This document shows, piece by piece, positions 12,732 through 22,412 of a stretch of 45,902 nt of DNA (its first letter is position 1; every line of letters begins with the position of its first letter). The DNA is from Candidatus Cloacimonadota bacterium (lineage in GTDB: Bacteria > Cloacimonadota > Cloacimonadia > Cloacimonadales > Cloacimonadaceae): positions 1 to 45,902 of the forward strand of contig JAKQWO010000073.1 in NCBI GenBank assembly GCA_029561955.1. The letters run 5' to 3'. The notes under the pieces were generated by a model. It was not told the origin of the DNA and made no database searches. It was given only the letters and a program-made list of their open reading frames with translations. Position numbers and translations under genes: made by a program.

Positions 12732-14045
12732 ATGCAACGTAAAGTGATCATCATGGGAGCTGCAGGGCGCGACTTCCACAACTTCAACGTCTACTTTAGA
12801 GATAACGACCAATACAAGGTCGTTGCCTTTACCGCCACTCAGATCCCTGGCATTGATGACAAAAAGTATCCCGCCAAACTGGCAGGGAAGCTGTATCCCA
12901 AGGGGATTAACATCCTCCCTGAAGCCGAACTTCCAAACTTGATCAAGAAGCACAAGGTAGACCTCGTGGTGCTTGCTTACAGTGATCTCCCACATGAAGA
13001 AGTGATGCACAAGGCATCCTTGGTAAACGCCGCTGGTGCAGACTTCTGGCTGATGGGCGTCAACAATACCTCCATCAAAACTACCAAACCTCTGATCAGT
13101 ATCTGTGCGGTGAGAACCGGTTGTGGCAAATCTCAGACCACCCGTGCCGTGATCAATGCTCTCAAAGCCAAAGGCCGCAAGGTGGTGTCAATCCGTCACC
13201 CTATGCCTTACGGAGATTTGGTGGCTCAGAGAGTGCAACGTTTTGCCGAACTGAGCGATCTCAAGAAACACAAATGCACCATCGAAGAAATGGAAGAATA
13301 CGAGCCGCATATCCAGATGAAGAGCGTCATCTATGCTGGCGTGGATTACGAAGCAATCCTGCGTGAAGCCGAGAAAGAAGCTGACGTGATTCTTTGGGAT
13401 GGTGGAAATAACGACACACCTTTCTACACCTCTGACAAGCAGCTTAGCATTGTGGTGGTAGACCCACATCGTCCCGGCGATGAAGTGTCCTACTATCCCG
13501 GTGAAACCAATATGCACCTCGCCGACGTGATCGTGATCAACAAAATCGACAGTGCAGATTTAATGGACATCAACGAAGTGCGCGAAAACATCCGCGAGAT
13601 CAACCCCAAAGCAAAAGTGGTCGATGCCGCTTCTCCCTTGAGCGTGGATAAGCCAGAGCTTATCACCGGCAAAAGAGTGCTGATCGTGGAAGATGGCCCC
13701 ACCCTTACCCATGGAAACATGGCTTATGGTGCGGGAACTGTCGCCGCCAGCAAATATGGTGCTTCAGAGTATATCGATCCCCGTCCTTGGGCTGTGGGTG
13801 AGATTGCGGAGACCTTTGAAAAGTATCCCGATATTGGTGAGTTGTTGCCGGCTATGGGCTATGGTGATCAGCAGATCAAAGACCTTGAAGCCACCATCAA
13901 CGCCACAGAGTGTGATGCAGTGGTGATCGCTACACCCATCGACCTGCGCCGCATCATCAAGATCAAACACCCCGCTTGCCAAGTGCAATATGATCTCCAA
14001 GAGATCGGACATCCCACCATCGAGGATGTATTAAAAGGCTTCTAA
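12732..14045 (+). CDS. COG2403 GTPase, cyclic 2,3-diphosphoglycerate synthetase-like
   Basis: A 437-residue cytosolic protein of the COG2403 family, annotated from similarity to archaeal cyclic 2,3-diphosphoglycerate synthetase; its bacterial role is not established. The N-terminal part is Rossmann-like (KVIIMGAAGRDFHNFNVYF). A P-loop variant RTGCGKSQTTRAVINAL is at about residue 129, followed by VSIRHPMPYGDL, a Walker B-like DVILWDGGNND, and a nucleotide-recognition-like VIVINKIDSAD. The C-terminal third has YGAGTVAASKYGA and ends with VIATPIDLRRII. It lies directly upstream of carbamate kinase but is separated from it by a terminator. The association suggests a role in carbamoyl-phosphate or amino-acid/purine fermentation, which is an inference. 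Confidence 0.8.
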   Translation: MQRKVIIMGAAGRDFHNFNVYFRDNDQYKVVAFTATQIPGIDDKKYPAKLAGKLYPKGINILPEAELPNLIKKHKVDLVVLAYSDLPHEEVMHKASLVNAAGADFWLMGVNNTSIKTTKPLISICAVRTGCGKSQTTRAVINALKAKGRKVVSIRHPMPYGDLVAQRVQRFAELSDLKKHKCTIEEMEEYEPHIQMKSVIYAGVDYEAILREAEKEADVILWDGGNNDTPFYTSDKQLSIVVVDPHRPGDEVSYYPGETNMHLADVIVINKIDSADLMDINEVRENIREINPKAKVVDAASPLSVDKPELITGKRVLIVEDGPTLTHGNMAYGAGTVAASKYGASEYIDPRPWAVGEIAETFEKYPDIGELLPAMGYGDQQIKDLEATINATECDAVVIATPIDLRRIIKIKHPACQVQYDLQEIGHPTIEDVLKGF

Positions 14046-14067
14046 GCATAACAAACCAAAAGATAGT

Positions 14068-14104
14068 AAGGGGCGGAACCGCACAAGATTCTGCCCCTTT
14101 TCTA
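14068..14104 (+). terminator. Intrinsic terminator after the COG2403 gene
   Basis: Stem AAGGGGCGGAA (14068-14078) with TTCTGCCCCTT (14089-14099), 11 bp including one G-U pair, a 10-nt loop and a T-rich tail. The 13 bases 14076-14088 (GAACCGCACAAGA) also occur at 10391-10403 beside repeat copy B. Confidence 0.8.
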
Positions 14105-14133
14105 TGATAGAACAAGTTTAAAGAGGATATAAG

Positions 14134-15081
14134 ATGAAGAAAACAGCGGTTCTTGCTTTGGGTGGAAACGCCATCATCAAAGCAGGCGAGAGAGGAGATA
14201 TCAGCCAGCAATTTGCCAATGTCAGAGATTCTTTGACAGGCATCGTGAAGCTGATTGATCAGGGTTATAAACTGGCTATTACGCATGGAAATGGCCCTCA
14301 GGTTGGCAATCTTTTGCGTCAGCAGGAAGCGGGTGAGAAGGAAGGTATCGCCATATTGCCCTTGGGTGTGCTGAATGCGGCTACAGAAGGTACGATGGGC
14401 TATATGATCGAGCAAAGCTTGCAGAATATGCTCCATAAAGCGGGTATTGAGAGGCAGGTGATCACCATCATCTCGCAAGTGGTTGTGGATAGAAACGATC
14501 CCAGCATGAAAAACCCCACCAAGTTTGTGGGCAGCACTTATTATACTGAAGAAGAGGCTGAAAAACACCGGAAAGAACTGGGCTGGAGCCTCAAAGAGGA
14601 TTCAGGTAAGGGCTACAGACGCGTGGTTCCCTCACCCTATCCCACCAAGATCGTCCCTGCTCAGCGCATCAAAGAGTTGGTGGAGCTGGGGGATATCGTA
14701 ATCGCTGTAGGTGGAGGTGGGATTCCCATTTACATCGATGATGACGGCTGTTATGAAGGTGTGGATGCAGTGATCGATAAAGACTTTGCTTCCATGCTGC
14801 TGGCTCTGAACATCGAGGCCGAGCTGTTTGTGATTCTCACCGGTGTGGAAAAGGTGGCGATCAATTATGGCAAGCCGGATCAGAAGGACGTAGACAAGAT
14901 GACCTTAGCTGAAGCTCGCAAGTACTATGAAGAATGGCAATTCCCTGCTGGAAGCATGGGGCCTAAGATCTTGGCTGCGATCGACTTCTTGGAAAAAGGC
15001 GGGCACGAAGTGCTGATCACATCCATCGAAAAGATTGTGGACGCCTTTAATGGAAAGACAGGCACGAGGATAGTCAAATAG
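14134..15081 (+). CDS. arcC: Carbamate kinase
   Basis: Carbamate kinase converts carbamoyl phosphate and ADP to ATP, CO2 and ammonia, so it supplies energy in arginine, agmatine, citrulline or purine fermentation. The 315-residue product shows the amino-acid-kinase fold: VLALGGNAII at the N-terminus, ITHGNGPQVGNLL, VVPSPYPTKIVPAQRI, IVIAVGGGGIPI, DKDFASMLLALNIEA, LTGVEKVAINYGKP and the closing GSMGPKILAAIDFLE. The length is typical. A ribosome site GAGGA precedes the start. It has its own terminator at 15109 and no transcarbamylase gene beside it, so the source of carbamoyl phosphate lies elsewhere in the genome. Confidence 0.95.
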   Translation: MKKTAVLALGGNAIIKAGERGDISQQFANVRDSLTGIVKLIDQGYKLAITHGNGPQVGNLLRQQEAGEKEGIAILPLGVLNAATEGTMGYMIEQSLQNMLHKAGIERQVITIISQVVVDRNDPSMKNPTKFVGSTYYTEEEAEKHRKELGWSLKEDSGKGYRRVVPSPYPTKIVPAQRIKELVELGDIVIAVGGGGIPIYIDDDGCYEGVDAVIDKDFASMLLALNIEAELFVILTGVEKVAINYGKPDQKDVDKMTLAEARKYYEEWQFPAGSMGPKILAAIDFLEKGGHEVLITSIEKIVDAFNGKTGTRIVK

Positions 15082-15106: not shown

Positions 15107-15871
15107 TCAAGTCCGGGCTAAGCTCGGACTTGGCTTTTTACAGAGCAGGATTTTGGCGGCTTTGACGATCACTTCCGTATAGTCGAAAGCCTCATCTAAA
15201 GTAGAGCCGAAGGTGAGCAGGCCGTGCTTGCTCCAGATCAGTGCTTTTTCTGTGGTTAGCCCAGTGATGGAAGCTTGGGCCAGTGCTTCGCTTCCGGGGG
15301 GATATGAGCCACATACATGGATGCCGGTATCCAAGAATAAGGGAAGTTCTGGCAGCGCTGCAGCCATTTCCTGATAGAGCACTTCTGTGTCCTCAATAAA
15401 AGCCTGATGTGAGAGGCAGATAACTTCATCTGGATGGCAGTGGAGCACAACGCGTCTATCCAAGCCCAGCTTTTTGAAGTGCTTGTGCAGATTGAGGTGG
15501 GCGTTCCACTCTGAGGTGGGCTTTGCTTTGGGGGCAAGGCAGCGGTAGTTAGCCCCTTTCACCTCTATGACCGTCAGATTGTCCATCGTGTTTGTGGCAT
15601 ATTGGCGATAGCGTGTGCCGGTCTTGGAGACCAAAAACAGCACGGGATCATCGTCTTCACCATAGTCCGTGAGGCGGATGCTCACGTTTCCGGCATTTGC
15701 TTCCGCCCACCCCCTTTGCCAGATGCAGGTTCCTATCTCTGCCAGCTTGGCTAAGAGCTTTTCCAAATCAATGTCTTGGGATTGGGGCTTGTCTTTCTCG
15801 TCCAGCTTCTGCTGTATTTGGTCCACGGTCTGTGAGCTGTTGAACGTAGCGATCAGGTCTATCTTGCGCAT
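15107..15871 (-). CDS. Class II aldolase family protein, rhamnulose-1-phosphate aldolase-like
   Basis: A 254-residue zinc-dependent class II aldolase of the RhaD/FucA/AraD fold. Family features are QRGWAEANAGNVSIRL near the N-terminus, the metal-binding pair VLHCHPDEVI, SHQAFIED after it, and the third histidine in WSKHGLLTFGSTLDEAF. The spacing and the WQRGWAEANAGN and HGLLTFG stretches look more like RhaD than FucA, but the substrate cannot be fixed from sequence and no rhamnose or fucose genes are present. It lies 27 nt downstream of a four-gene membrane-protein run and is probably co-transcribed with it. Confidence 0.75.
   Translation of the reverse strand: MRKIDLIATFNSSQTVDQIQQKLDEKDKPQSQDIDLEKLLAKLAEIGTCIWQRGWAEANAGNVSIRLTDYGEDDDPVLFLVSKTGTRYRQYATNTMDNLTVIEVKGANYRCLAPKAKPTSEWNAHLNLHKHFKKLGLDRRVVLHCHPDEVICLSHQAFIEDTEVLYQEMAAALPELPLFLDTGIHVCGSYPPGSEALAQASITGLTTEKALIWSKHGLLTFGSTLDEAFDYTEVIVKAAKILLCKKPSPSLART
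15109..15139 (+). terminator. Intrinsic terminator of arcC, inside the end of the convergent gene
   Basis: Stem AAGTCCGGGC (15109-15118) with GCTCGGACTT (15122-15131), a 3-nt loop, then GGCTTTTT. It lies within the last codons of the convergent aldolase gene, which stops at 15107, so those codons serve both purposes. Confidence 0.75.
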
Positions 15872-15898
15872 CGTGTTAGTCCTACTTCAGGCTATGGG

Positions 15899-16537
15899 TT
15901 ACTTGATGATGTGGAGCCAATCTTTGAGCAAGAACTCCAAGCGGCCGATCAGGAGCGAGATTCTCGCCATCACGGTGTAGCCAAAGGTAGCACCAAAGCT
16001 CACCATCAGGAAGTAAACTCCGATCTTGGAGGGTATCTTAGCGATGCCTTCCTGCTTTTTGCTGAAATAGAAGAAATACACGCCACAGATGGTTCCGATG
16101 ATCAGCATCAGGTTTCCCACGATTTCTGATGGAACCTTTGTGGCAAAGGGATTGATCATCGTGGCTGCCACCTGAGCAATTAGGTCACTCTTCAAAAAGC
16201 GTAAGAGGCTGATGGCTGCACTGGTGCCGATCACGATCGAAAGCGGATAGCGGCTCAACCATTGGATTTTGGGCACCATACGCGTAATCATCATGATTCC
16301 CAGAGCAAAGGGGATGAGCAGGATCAGGTTACCGCCAAAATCGGTAGCTAACTTAGTAAAGAGATTGGGCATGAGCGCAGCATAGATGATGTAAATGAGT
16401 CCATATCCGGCGCTTAAACCCACGAAGATCTGCTCAGCCAGCTTGTAGAAGGGATTGTCCTTATACAAAAAGCTGAAGATGGCAAAGGTGAAGAAAGCAC
16501 CCAGCCAGATTCCGACGGTGTTCATGATATCAGGCAT
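15899..16537 (-). CDS. Uncharacterised multi-pass membrane protein (gene 4 of membrane operon)
   Basis: A 212-residue integral membrane protein of no family I recognise. About six hydrophobic segments can be seen: residues 8-24, 32-55 (QIFVGLSAGYGLIYIIYAAL), 68-86, 95-112, 140-160 (IVGNLMLIIGTICGVYFFYF) and 172-195. The loops are short and modestly basic. The gene overlaps the upstream gene by 8 nt, so the two are translationally coupled. There are no obvious catalytic residues, and conserved-looking glycines within the segments suggest a structural or transport-like part of a complex with the neighbouring three proteins. Confidence 0.7.
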   Translation of the reverse strand: MPDIMNTVGIWLGAFFTFAIFSFLYKDNPFYKLAEQIFVGLSAGYGLIYIIYAALMPNLFTKLATDFGGNLILLIPFALGIMMITRMVPKIQWLSRYPLSIVIGTSAAISLLRFLKSDLIAQVAATMINPFATKVPSEIVGNLMLIIGTICGVYFFYFSKKQEGIAKIPSKIGVYFLMVSFGATFGYTVMARISLLIGRLEFLLKDWLHIIK

Positions 16538-17387
16538 CTTTCACCTCAATTTTCTTGGCATTGTCTCTTTTGCGAATCCACACCTTGATATTGCCCACTG
16601 CAATAAGTGCCAAAATCAAGATATGAGCCACAGATTGGGCGTCCATCTTGGTGGTTGCAGGCCCCTTTTTATCGATCAGAGCTTCATATTCCGAGGCCGC
16701 CTTCAGCCCACCCAAAAGTCCTGTGAGCTGTCCATGGTTGTTTACATAAGGCAAAAAGCCAGGTGCACTCACAGCAGTTGTGCCTCCGGTGACCGGAACA
16801 TTGTGCACGTCGTGGGCGATCATGATCCAATCCTTGAGTCCCGGTTCGCCTGCCGAAAGTGAGCAGATCCATCTCAAGCCTTTGATATTCTTCAGGTTTT
16901 TCAGCATGGGAAGAGTATCCCAATCCCGACCGGAAGAGTCTTTTGGATACACGTCTTTGAAGCTGCTACCCAAGGCTTGGACTGTGACCATGCCACCCAC
17001 CTTGTAGCCTAAGTTCACATAGTCCACTCCATATTCTTTATCCTTGAAGAGTGGATTACGCTTGGCTTCTTCAAAGCTTTGGGCAGCCATTTGCGGGCCT
17101 TGAGGCCAGAGGGCGGTGGCGATCACCTTTTGTCCTCTGCTCCAAGCATGCTCTATCTGAGCTACGGCCATAGGTTGCATTTCCGTGATGGTGGATGCCT
17201 CATAGTCAAAAGAGATCAAGCCTATGCCGCCGGCGGGAGTTTGGTCTATCAGATCATAGCTCATTTTCACCACCGGAGAGACCTCTGAACCCCAGCCGAT
17301 GGGGAAGAGCAGCGGCAACAACACAGCCAAGAACAGCAGGAAATACACGATACGACGTTCGATAACAGAGCTGGTGTTCAAGCTCAT
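16530..17387 (-). CDS. Uncharacterised membrane-anchored protein with large soluble domain (gene 3 of membrane operon)
   Basis: A 285-residue protein with one hydrophobic segment at each end: about residues 12-30 (YFLLFLAVLLPLLFPIGWG) and about 252-268 (HILILALIAVGNIKVW), then a lysine-rich tail. The roughly 215-residue part between them looks like an alpha-beta fold, with GGIGLISFDYEASTITEMQP, RGQKVIATALWPQGPQMAA, VDYVNLGYKVGGMVTVQALG and PVTGGTTAVSAPGFLPYV. I do not recognise the family. The soluble part most likely faces the periplasm if the first segment is a signal anchor. The gene overlaps its neighbours by 4 and 8 nt. Confidence 0.68.
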   Translation of the reverse strand: MSLNTSSVIERRIVYFLLFLAVLLPLLFPIGWGSEVSPVVKMSYDLIDQTPAGGIGLISFDYEASTITEMQPMAVAQIEHAWSRGQKVIATALWPQGPQMAAQSFEEAKRNPLFKDKEYGVDYVNLGYKVGGMVTVQALGSSFKDVYPKDSSGRDWDTLPMLKNLKNIKGLRWICSLSAGEPGLKDWIMIAHDVHNVPVTGGTTAVSAPGFLPYVNNHGQLTGLLGGLKAASEYEALIDKKGPATTKMDAQSVAHILILALIAVGNIKVWIRKRDNAKKIEVKDA

Positions 17388-18082
17388 TTATCACCTCCCA
17401 AATAGGAGCGTTCTATGCCCAATATGATGCGTAAACTGCTGCCGATAATGCCCAAAGAAGCACTGATCAAAATGGCTCTTTGAGCGGCTGTGTTCGGGTA
17501 TTGCATGATGAAGTCTGCCAAAACGGGGAGCTGCCAGAATCTGTAGTTTTCCGGAATCCAAGAAGTGAGCATGGTGCCAAAGCCAGTGCGACCCAAGATC
17601 ACGATCACGGCAGAGATCATCAGGAGATTGGATTCAAAAGTGCGGATGATGAAGGCTCGATATGCTGCGGAGGCGATAAAGAAAGCCAGCAGCGAAAACA
17701 TGGTGGCGGAAAGCGGCACCAGGGCGTTGTCATAGGTATAATCAAAGGGCTTCTTTCCCAGCCAGGAGATGATCTTCTCGCCTTGACCCAACAAGCCAGG
17801 CTGGTCTTCCATGCCCCAAAGCGCTCCAATAATCACCATCACGGCAAAAGCAATCACGCAGGCCAGATGATAGCCCCAGTTTTCTGCTTTGGTGCTGATC
17901 TTCTGGTAGTTCATCTGCAGCAGGGAAGCCAGTCCTAGGACTATGGAGAAACCGGCAATGATCATAAACCATTCCTCCAAGGTCTCCACCATATTGCTAA
18001 AGGGGCGATGCGGGATAAATTCACTGACTATCATCAGCAGTCCGGCCAAGAAAGCCAAAATCAGAGGTATATTACGTTTCAT
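17384..18082 (-). CDS. Uncharacterised six-segment membrane protein (gene 2 of membrane operon)
   Basis: A 232-residue integral membrane protein. Hydrophobic segments are seen at about residues 4-22, 38-57, 68-91 (ACVIAFAVMVIIGALWGM), 122-145, 153-177 and 199-223 (ILISASLGIIGSSLRIILGI). A loop of about 30 residues with several charged positions lies between segments 3 and 4. No family is recognised. ATGA-type 4-nt overlaps on both sides put it firmly in the operon. Its architecture is reminiscent of its partner at 15899 (about six segments, little else), but I cannot align the two by eye. Confidence 0.68.
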   Translation of the reverse strand: MKRNIPLILAFLAGLLMIVSEFIPHRPFSNMVETLEEWFMIIAGFSIVLGLASLLQMNYQKISTKAENWGYHLACVIAFAVMVIIGALWGMEDQPGLLGQGEKIISWLGKKPFDYTYDNALVPLSATMFSLLAFFIASAAYRAFIIRTFESNLLMISAVIVILGRTGFGTMLTSWIPENYRFWQLPVLADFIMQYPNTAAQRAILISASLGIIGSSLRIILGIERSYLGGDK

Positions 18083-19191
18083 GCTCCTGCTCCCATTAAA
18101 AATGATTTAAGCCAGCTTATGCCAGCGATTTCAAGGGCAACTCCCACCAAGATGAGGACGATGACCAAGAGTTTGCCAAAGTCGTGCCCTTTGAGGCTGC
18201 CCACCTGTTGTGCGTCTCTGGAAAGGTAGGCAGATGCGGCAAATAGCTCCTCGCCGATCAAGGTGTAGTCACAAGAAACTACAAAGAAGGGCAACTGGTG
18301 CGCATTTGCCGTGCCTGCAGTTTGGATGGCTCCGGTGCTCAATCCCGTCTCAGCCAGGATCAAGGATTCTGCATAGAAGGAGCCCAAAAAGAAGTTTGCC
18401 GCCGGCTCTTCTCTCACGATGATGCCGTCTATTCCTGCGACAAAACCAAATTGGTCATCGGTGAGATAAAAGATACTCTCCTCTCTGAAGGCGTCACTGC
18501 GTCCAGCCTTGAGATATGCTTCTTTGACCACTTCTCTGGCAGCGGAGAGCACCATTGAGAAGCGGCAAGGCACGATGATCTCGGTGTTGTATTCTGCTGC
18601 TCTGTAAGCCAATTGGCTGAGGATGGAGAGGGAAGATAGCGTTTGGATATCTCCAAGTTCGGATACCCCAGGCACAAAGAGGATAGGTTTGCCCTTCTCT
18701 GTGGCTCTGCCTATGGCTTCTTCCATGGAATCCAAGCCGCTTATACGCCTGATGAAGAACTCTTTACCTCGTTTGGCAGCCAGGATGTAATAGATGATAG
18801 CCGCGCTGAGAATGATCAGCATCAGGAGATAGGCCAGCTTGTCCAGATAAAACCAGTTCTGTTTAGTAACGGCGTATGCTGAGAGCTGCAAGCTGTCTGC
18901 ATCCGTGGAGCTAAAGGCCAAAAGACGGTATTGGTAATCTGTATCGTAGCTTAGGTCTTGATCCACAAAGCTGGTTTCACCTTCTGTAGGTATGAATAGG
19001 GGCTGATAAACTCCCAAACTGTCTGCCTTCAGAATCTGCACAGAGTCGATTGCAGCGGGGAGTTTCCACTCAAGGATGATGGCGTCACCTTTGTCATAAG
19101 GTCTGTCTTTTGCCCTAAAAAACGGAGTTTCGTACGCTATCAGCCACGTAAAAGAGCTGAGGATGAAGAGGATGGTGATAATACGTTTCAT
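18079..19191 (-). CDS. DUF6754-like membrane protein with Fn3-like extracytoplasmic domain (gene 1 of membrane operon)
   Basis: A 370-residue protein. A signal peptide (residues 1-19) is followed by a beta-rich domain of about 90 residues resembling fibronectin type III (VQILKADSLGVYQPLF, YDTDYQYRLLAFSSTDAD). A membrane segment follows at about 117-138, then a domain of about 195 residues with GKPILFVPGVSELGDIQTLS, EIIVPCRFSMVLSAAREVV, FFLGSFYAESLILAETG and SCDYTLIGEELFAASAYLS. A final membrane segment is at about 341-362. The second domain looks like DUF6754, of unknown function; this match is from memory and only moderately sure. The start is ATG 19191 after GAGGCAAAT. It leads a run of four overlapping genes. 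Confidence 0.65.
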   Translation of the reverse strand: MKRIITILFILSSFTWLIAYETPFFRAKDRPYDKGDAIILEWKLPAAIDSVQILKADSLGVYQPLFIPTEGETSFVDQDLSYDTDYQYRLLAFSSTDADSLQLSAYAVTKQNWFYLDKLAYLLMLIILSAAIIYYILAAKRGKEFFIRRISGLDSMEEAIGRATEKGKPILFVPGVSELGDIQTLSSLSILSQLAYRAAEYNTEIIVPCRFSMVLSAAREVVKEAYLKAGRSDAFREESIFYLTDDQFGFVAGIDGIIVREEPAANFFLGSFYAESLILAETGLSTGAIQTAGTANAHQLPFFVVSCDYTLIGEELFAASAYLSRDAQQVGSLKGHDFGKLLVIVLILVGVALEIAGISWLKSFLMGAGA

Positions 19192-19570: not shown

Positions 19571-20377
19571 TTATTTGTAAGGGAAGGCTTGCTTGATCTG
19601 CTCTGTGAGCATGACCAGCTCTTCCACTTGTTCTTTGGTGTAGGTGTTGTTGCTGTGACTGGCAAGGATTTGGCTGACTTTTGGGATCAGCTCGCTTACG
19701 CTTTTATAGGTCTCGCTGTCCTTGATCTCGGGCTTTGAAAACAGCTCAAGGTTGGCCTGCATACCGCTCCAGGTGCTCTCGTGGCTGAGTGCTTTGGTGG
19801 TTTCGGGAGAGTAGTTAGCGGTTAAAATCTTACCCGCGCCGTTCAGGGCTTCCGCCCAGCCACCTAAGATCATCAGAGTGTAGTATTCATAGTCCTTCCG
19901 CTCCCAGAGTTTGTCTTCCAGCATCTTCTTCATAGCGTCCAAGGCTTTTTCGATATCACTCCACTTTCCCTGTTTGGTGAAACCGGCGAGCAAGCTATCC
20001 AAACGCTTTACCTCCTCTTCGAGTCCCATGAGGCTGCTTAGGTTCATCATCTCAGCAGATACGCTTGAAAGCTGCTTCTTGTTTCTTGCTTTGGCGGCTA
20101 TTACTGCATCGGCTGTCGACACACCCAATGCGAAGGCATTATTGGGGCTTTCGGGCTTGATGCGGTAGAGTTGCTTATTCAGGATGGAAGCGTAGTCTTT
20201 GGGCTGCAAATCATCCAGAAGACGAAAGGCCTCCTTGAAGGAAGGCAGCGGTGAGAAAGAGGCAATCTGAGCCTTGATCTCGTCCGTAGGCATCTTGGCG
20301 GCATCCCTTCTTCCCTTGCAGGATGTGAGGGTCATCAACAGCATAATTGCCATCAAGATCAGAGTGATTCTTTTCAT
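19571..20377 (-). CDS. Uncharacterised lipoprotein
   Basis: A 268-residue predicted lipoprotein: positively charged start MKR, a hydrophobic stretch and the lipobox LTSC with Cys20, then CKGRRDAAK. The mature part is almost wholly helical and charged (SSLMGLEEEVKRLDSLLAGF, WSDIEKALDAMKKMLEDKLW, ELVMLTEQIKQAFPY) and may be a helical-repeat domain. No family is recognised. AAGGAG lies 8-9 nt before the ATG. It follows the DUF2851 gene by 50 nt and is followed by a strong terminator, so it probably closes that transcript. Confidence 0.75.
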   Translation of the reverse strand: MKRITLILMAIMLLMTLTSCKGRRDAAKMPTDEIKAQIASFSPLPSFKEAFRLLDDLQPKDYASILNKQLYRIKPESPNNAFALGVSTADAVIAAKARNKKQLSSVSAEMMNLSSLMGLEEEVKRLDSLLAGFTKQGKWSDIEKALDAMKKMLEDKLWERKDYEYYTLMILGGWAEALNGAGKILTANYSPETTKALSHESTWSGMQANLELFSKPEIKDSETYKSVSELIPKVSQILASHSNNTYTKEQVEELVMLTEQIKQAFPYK

Positions 20378-21725: not shown

Positions 21726-22412
21726 CTAAAAATACCGGTTTAACATCCGATAGCGCTGTCTTGCTGAGGCGGAATTATACAGGCTATGCGGACTGTGCAG
21801 GACGGGTGAGGTCAAGATGGAGATCAAACGCTTGGACTGATCCCTGCTGATATTGGCACAACCACGTCCATAATAGTGCAAGGATGCAGTCTGGATGCCA
21901 TAGATTCCCTTGCCCCACTCCACATAGTTAAAATACAGCTCCAGCATGCGGTCTTTGGTCATGATGATTTCCATGATCACCGTCACCTGCGCTTCCAGAT
22001 ACTTGCGCAGGTAGTTGCGGTCTGTGGTGAGGAAGATCGTGCGTGCCACCTGATTGCTGATGGTGCTGGCTCCAAAGCGGATGCGTCCTGCCTTCTTATT
22101 TCTCTGCCAAGCCTTCCTGATCTCAGGAAATTCAAAGCCAAAGTGCTTGTAGTAGTTGCCATCTTCCAGAGCGATCACCATCTTCTGAGTGGAAGAAGGG
22201 AAGTTCTCAAGCGGCACGTAATATCTTTTGTGCCAATCATATCCTCGGATCAGGTATCTTTGGAGCATGAGTGGCGTGATGGGTGGATTGACGAAGGAGT
22301 AGATCAGGCAAAGTGCAGCAACCAAGCCCCAAAAGCCCAGATGCAAAAACAGAATAAAACGCAGGACCCTAACGATGGGAGTTCTGCGTTTTATGGGTTT
22401 CTTCTTGCCCAA
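21726..22412 (-). CDS. mtgA: Monofunctional peptidoglycan glycosyltransferase
   Basis: A GT51 enzyme that polymerises lipid II into glycan strands on the outer face of the inner membrane. The 228-residue product has one membrane anchor (about residues 16-40) and the conserved motifs ALEDGNYYKHFG (catalytic Glu83), GASTISNQVARTIF and RKYLEAQVTVIMEIIMTKDRMLELYFN, then WGKGIYGIQTASLHYYGR. There is no transpeptidase domain, so it is the MtgA form. The start is TTG 22412, with AGAGGA 6 nt upstream. It lies 52 nt after rpsT, with a small palindrome (22429-22446) in the gap. Confidence 0.92.
   Translation of the reverse strand: MGKKKPIKRRTPIVRVLRFILFLHLGFWGLVAALCLIYSFVNPPITPLMLQRYLIRGYDWHKRYYVPLENFPSSTQKMVIALEDGNYYKHFGFEFPEIRKAWQRNKKAGRIRFGASTISNQVARTIFLTTDRNYLRKYLEAQVTVIMEIIMTKDRMLELYFNYVEWGKGIYGIQTASLHYYGRGCANISRDQSKRLISILTSPVLHSPHSLYNSASARQRYRMLNRYF

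Follow-up and report, generated by a model that had tools for sequence, protein, structure and literature searches.

Proteins of the GlmL and reactivase type are thought to switch or reset B12 mutases, and the GlmL/MutL family (PF13941, TIGR01319, NF040745) is usually seen as one of mutase helpers. In Rnf and Nqr, two six-TM subunits lie in the membrane in opposite orientation, while the synthesis or export of poly-gamma-glutamate is the task of PgsB, PgsC and PgsW (TIGR04332 for PgsW, TIGR04011 for PgsC). Each of these systems has something in common with the group of genes dealt with here, D6754, TMA, SOL and TMB with their partners S110, MutL and KBL, from the metagenome-assembled genome of an uncultured bacterium. 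The partner MutL has the full-length GlmL/MutL family domain and the ASKHA motifs, but its length is around 605–620 amino acids, and its partners are KBL and membrane proteins where GlmL would have glutamate mutase genes. PgsW has a layout like that of SOL, but the sequence similarity is not significant and the partners differ. The TMA/TMB pair resembles the oppositely oriented six-TM pair of Rnf/Nqr, but is without a family match and without a conserved cysteine. D6754 itself is a clear member of PF20539 (DUF6754), a family without an assigned function, and TMA, SOL and TMB are not covered by the libraries used. To our knowledge, this combination of genes belongs to no characterised system. 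DUF6754 is mentioned in 0 of 5.39 million open-access texts, and the passages considered from PMC13082233 (on propionate and PGA in Cloacimonadota) hold no description of the set.

The window, which is the whole stretch of 45,902 nucleotides that was analysed, belongs to a Cloacimonadota genome of 2.13 Mb in 81 contigs, the closest relatives of which are titled Candidatus Cloacimonadota. The coordinates (Table 1) confirm what a preliminary description had read from the DNA, namely that the genes for D6754, TMA, SOL and TMB run into one another, sharing 4, 4 and 8 nt, and that a gap of 27 nt separates TMB from an aldolase gene. Since the gene order is kept across three phyla and overlaps of 1–8 nt recur in many Cloacimonadota relatives, these overlaps are not a matter of chance. 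The same genome holds a paralogous set on contig C73, made up of D6754 (955 aa), TMA, SOL (396 aa) and TMB, with a second D6754 (947 aa) at its end.

Table 1. Genes of the operon and its neighbours, with positions in the window and predicted layout of the products.
Feature	Position	Strand	Length (aa)	Remarks
D6754	18079-19191	-	370	Signal/anchor segment; FN3-like domain ~23-110, predicted extracytoplasmic; TM 119-137; DUF6754 domain, predicted cytoplasmic; C-terminal TM 341-359
TMA	17384-18082	-	232	
SOL	16530-17387	-	285	TM; alpha/beta domain ~32-251, predicted extracytoplasmic; TM; both termini predicted cytoplasmic
TMB	15899-16537	-	212	
Class II aldolase	15107-15871	-	254	PF00596
Putative lipoprotein	19571-20377	-		Directly upstream of D6754; lipobox-like N-terminus MLLMTLTSC

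Quite apart from its paralogue, the operon is not the orphan that the preliminary description had made of it, as the four-gene set is nearly universal in Cloacimonadota and recurs in Riflebacteria and in one further phylum. DUF6754 was found in 97 of the 99 sampled Cloacimonadota genomes and SOL in 96; G027 and G043 (93% and 91% complete) are without both, and G085 (75% complete) has DUF6754 with no match to SOL. Above the cut-off, DUF6754 is also present in 18 of the 148 sampled genomes of the second phylum and in 30 of the 40 of the Riflebacteria phylum. Loci titled Chloroflexi, Bacillota and Armatimonadetes all belong to this second phylum in the grouping used, and the count is three phyla and not five. 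Among loci with enough flank, 51 of 53 in Cloacimonadota keep the order D6754-TMA-SOL-TMB, as do 13 of 15 from the second phylum and 17 of 19 from Riflebacteria. These figures include three duplicate loci and score two split Cloacimonadota hits as being in order; the two true exceptions in Cloacimonadota are those of an extra D6754 gene that ends a second set. The genes thus show no free separation, although D6754 is found apart from TMA, SOL and TMB in some genomes (loci L130, L131, L149 and L151). A quick tree of the DUF6754 domain groups the sequences mostly by phylum, and two Riflebacteria sequences nested in the Cloacimonadota clade may, to judge by their placement, reflect a transfer. 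No relatives of SOL or D6754 were found among plasmid records.

The protein first described as DUF6754-like turned out to be a true member of PF20539: in a Pfam scan it scored 390.4 bits against a curated cut-off of 27 (E = 3.9e-117), with the match running from position 2 to 256 of the 257 of the domain. Among 42 sequences from three phyla, around 70 columns of the DUF6754 domain are invariant; the outer regions of the protein are variable, and its length ranges from about 370 to 1000 amino acids. The pattern of hydropathy and positive charge predicts that the domain lies inside. The secreted N-terminal part was modelled with good confidence as a beta sandwich, and it has a weak match (E = 0.023) to a solved fibronectin-III (FN3) domain.

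The preliminary description had confined the system to four membrane-protein genes, but it looks larger than that, because both gene order and co-occurrence link S110, MutL and KBL to it. Outside Cloacimonadota the S110-MutL-KBL genes usually stand after D6754-TMA-SOL-TMB, S110 being small and having one hydrophobic stretch. KBL and DUF6754 occur together in 17 of the 19 positive genomes of the second phylum and in 29 of the 31 of Riflebacteria, although such counts are not independent, as the genomes within a phylum are related. In the window's genome the three genes form a separate locus on contig C29 (L167), and in another Cloacimonadota family they lie around 10–15 kb from the second set (L169 and L170). 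MutL and KBL are each present in 97 of 99 Cloacimonadota genomes, and G027 and G043 possess them although D6754 and SOL are absent, so that the ATPase pair serves at least one further purpose.

The MutL of the window's genome scores 429 bits against PF13941 (cut-off 27), with the domain spanning its full length, and the aligned sequences retain DCGSTTTK, DIGGATTD and GSGG, which are ASKHA motifs for phosphate and adenosine. MutL stays well below the NCBIfam cut-offs of both the GlmL equivalog (216.8 vs. 475 bits) and glmL_fam (156.8 vs. 204.05 bits). KBL has weak matches to barrel-sandwich and RnfC_N domains (RnfC_N at 20.2 bits, with a cut-off of 25.6), and its C-terminal stretch looks KOW-like to us. 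Next to the methylmalonyl-CoA mutase genes of the window's genome lies a gene in which MutL and KBL are fused (L168); because this fusion exists, MutL and KBL probably act as one unit, and its place by the mutase genes suggests a tie between the pair and the known mutase-accessory family. The fusion, and the membership of MutL in the GlmL/MutL family, would also fit a B12-linked system, in which MutL-KBL would be a reactivation chaperone of adenosylcobalamin mutases, and a corrinoid or its enzyme would be supplied, stored or protected at the membrane by the complex. Family scans, however, found no corrinoid-binding domain in the four membrane proteins, and no mutase was recognised by the membrane operon or by the separate S110-MutL-KBL locus; we give the B12 link a low probability.

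SOL had been credited with a soluble domain of 285 residues, which is in fact the length of the whole protein, the domain being the shorter stretch given in Table 1. The predicted topology, with the ends inside and the domain outside, comes from hydropathy and positive charge averaged over alignments. E69, D150, Q220, E235, Q251 and H255 are invariant. In the AlphaFold2 model (pLDDT 91.6, pTM 0.84), a hydrophobic N-terminal helix is followed by an alpha/beta domain, and the second TM is part of the long helix at the C-terminus. The DUF6754 domain was modelled too poorly for a fold search. Remote homology of the soluble domain of SOL was sought with Foldseek in the PDB and viral libraries, which returned only generic alpha/beta matches, none below E = 1e-3 and with query TM-scores of at most about 0.34, and the SOL profile had no significant match among PDB sequences. 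Homology between SOL and DUF6754 was rejected (hhalign probability 1.1%).

The layout of SOL, a hydrophobic segment, a large middle domain and another hydrophobic segment, is shared with PgsW, and this brings to mind a machine for the synthesis or export of an envelope polymer, similar to PgsB-PgsC-PgsW and with SOL in the role of PgsW. A PgsC-PgsW pair is present in the window's genome, and a Wzz-like polysaccharide chain-length protein follows the clusters of Riflebacteria (6 loci). SOL and PgsW seemed to align well on visual inspection, but a comparison of their profiles did not exceed what shuffling gives, with an hhalign probability below 1% and the score reached by 26 of 100 shuffles, and SOL was rejected as a PgsW relative; the same was the case for TMA and TMB as relatives of PgsC (hhalign probabilities 0.1–0.2%). 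No PgsB-type ligase was recognised in the cluster, and a Pgs-like machine appears unlikely.

The class II aldolase had been reckoned among the set, a view that did not hold. Its match to PF00596 is clear of the cut-off (103.5 vs. 22.2 bits) and that to the rhamnulose-1-phosphate aldolase equivalog falls below it (147.2 vs. 170 bits). The gene follows TMB, directly or behind an acyl-CoA/ACP ligase-like gene, only in one Cloacimonadota family (28 loci), and because of this restriction it is a lineage-specific neighbour outside the core, probably co-transcribed with the four genes. The putative lipoprotein gene, seen in 33 Cloacimonadota loci (at position -1 in 31) and kept as a neighbour within the same family, is likewise best seen as a co-transcribed neighbour. 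The molybdenum-cofactor genes for MobB and MoeA are neighbours in a few loci only.

ABC transporter genes recur beside the set in all three phyla, which might mean that the four genes are those of an ordinary uncharacterised transporter, their order kept by co-expression only and without a stable complex. The neighbouring ABC transporters, however, vary by phylum, whereas the four-gene core and MutL-KBL are constant, and this explanation is distinctly improbable. In family, PDB and defence-model scans no protein of the four matched a known transporter or secretion part, and none of the PADLOC defence models was matched by the seven proteins at E up to 0.1. The ABC transporters, the Wzz-like neighbour and a gene near the window operon (21726-22412), which from its sequence we take to be peptidoglycan glycosyltransferase-like, point loosely to the envelope.

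TMA and TMB were both presented at first as six-segment membrane proteins, which is right for TMA and has to be extended for TMB by a weak seventh segment. Across 24 relatives, hydropathy and charge predict that TMA has its N- and C-termini inside and that TMB, in the opposite orientation, has its N-terminus outside. The topologies of SOL, DUF6754, TMA and TMB alike are predictions from simple hydropathy and a charge count, and the one for TMA is weak, with a small margin (7.9 vs. 5.0). TMA matched no Pfam family over the cut-off and nothing in NCBIfam or the PDB; for TMB no family reached its cut-off (the best was DUF679, 20.6 vs. 25 bits) and no PDB match was found. An ion-translocating or redox complex like Rnf/Nqr, with KBL as an RnfC-like cytoplasmic subunit, would agree with the opposite orientations and with the weak RnfC_N-type barrel-sandwich match in KBL, but such a pump is very unlikely because no cysteine for a membrane Fe-S site is conserved in even half of the TMA or TMB rows and the Pfam scan gave no Rnf/Nqr family match; nor was an Fe-S or flavin motif recognised.

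The reading that we favour, tentatively and at somewhat below an even chance, is that of a complex in the inner membrane that carries conserved domains on either side, is directed at an envelope substrate and has a MutL-KBL ATPase module acting on it. The architecture of the set is well supported. The sequences show directly the gene content and order, the co-occurrence and the ATP motifs, whereas the topology and the fold of SOL are predictions, and we infer the physical complex, the ATP coupling and the envelope substrate. TMA and TMB would form a multi-spanning core of opposite orientations, with SOL displaying its alpha/beta domain outside, and D6754 would place its highly conserved domain inside and a variable arm, FN3-like in this case, outside. 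The cytoplasmic MutL (of the ASKHA fold) and KBL, along with the small S110, would work with this complex even where, as in the window's genome, they are encoded elsewhere. By analogy with the GlmL and reactivase-type proteins of B12 mutases, MutL-KBL might spend ATP to switch or reset the complex, which could then process or move an envelope-associated substrate bound by the outer domains. The constant inner domain, the variable outer arms, the outer alpha/beta domain and the two multi-spanning proteins suggest a coupling of both membrane faces, and that a pair with an ASKHA ATPase is so strongly associated with the set suggests a switching or resetting step driven by ATP. The preliminary proposal of a stable membrane complex belonging to an undescribed system is partly supported, the genes neither separating freely nor matching a known complex, but has lost the orphan status, the aldolase and the four-gene extent that went with it. 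More tentative again is the full form of the idea, a seven-protein inner-membrane machine (D6754, TMA, SOL, TMB, S110, MutL and KBL) in which a GlmL-type ATPase would act as the motor or as the reset factor; such a machine would be a nearly universal trait of Cloacimonadota that is also found in Riflebacteria and a third phylum.

Cloacimonadota are common in anaerobic digesters and are known almost only from metagenomes, and the set described here is present in nearly every sampled genome of the phylum. The two nearly complete genomes that lack D6754 lack SOL as well. The four core proteins match no characterised family, and no solved structure is a confident relative of SOL. The tie to an ATPase of the GlmL type suggests a second, membrane-linked role for a family with a history as a helper of mutases. 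If the seven-protein machine is real, ATP-coupled envelope systems would gain a new kind, and its confirmation would give several phyla of which little is understood a further basic machine of the envelope.

Among relatives of the window, the operon is often preceded by the gene for a 1088-aa ABC-2 transporter and followed by one that is acyl-CoA/ACP ligase-like, as at L040 (see table); the window has neither at these positions. Some Cloacimonadota loci (L065, L071, L072 and L074) also include a MobB-like gene close to the operon.

Coordinates of neighbouring and related genes
Feature	Location	Note
ABC-2 transporter, 1088 aa	L040:3738-7004	upstream of operon
Acyl-CoA/ACP ligase-like gene	L040:11196-12728	downstream of operon
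CobW/HypB-type GTPase-like and carbamate kinase genes	window 12732-15081 (+)	convergent with operon
Second SOL gene	L080:10980-11807	after TMB
PgsC and PgsW genes (poly-gamma-glutamate system)	L181:656-2235	own genome, contig C64
MutL domain and KBL-like region, fused, 947 aa	L168:3629-6472	own genome, contig C6
S110-MutL-KBL locus	L167:4873-8297	own genome, contig C29

Some loci of other phyla have additions to the cluster. KBL, a putative barrel-sandwich protein, is followed by a Wzz-like polysaccharide chain-length protein in Riflebacteria (L150, L152, L158, L162, L081 and L082), and one second-phylum locus carries a second gene for SOL, the soluble-domain protein with a hydrophobic segment at each end. 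A moeA-like gene adjoins the divergent, stand-alone DUF6754 gene at three Riflebacteria loci (L147, L149 and L157); the DUF6754 gene of L151, also from Riflebacteria, is far more divergent than these.

Elsewhere in the window's own genome, two methylmalonyl-CoA mutase genes lie near the fusion of MutL, an ASKHA ATPase, with the KBL-like region, and genes that appear, from their sequences, to be PurQ-like and ComF-like precede the S110-MutL-KBL locus. The genome's PgsW shares its layout with SOL but has no detectable sequence similarity to it.
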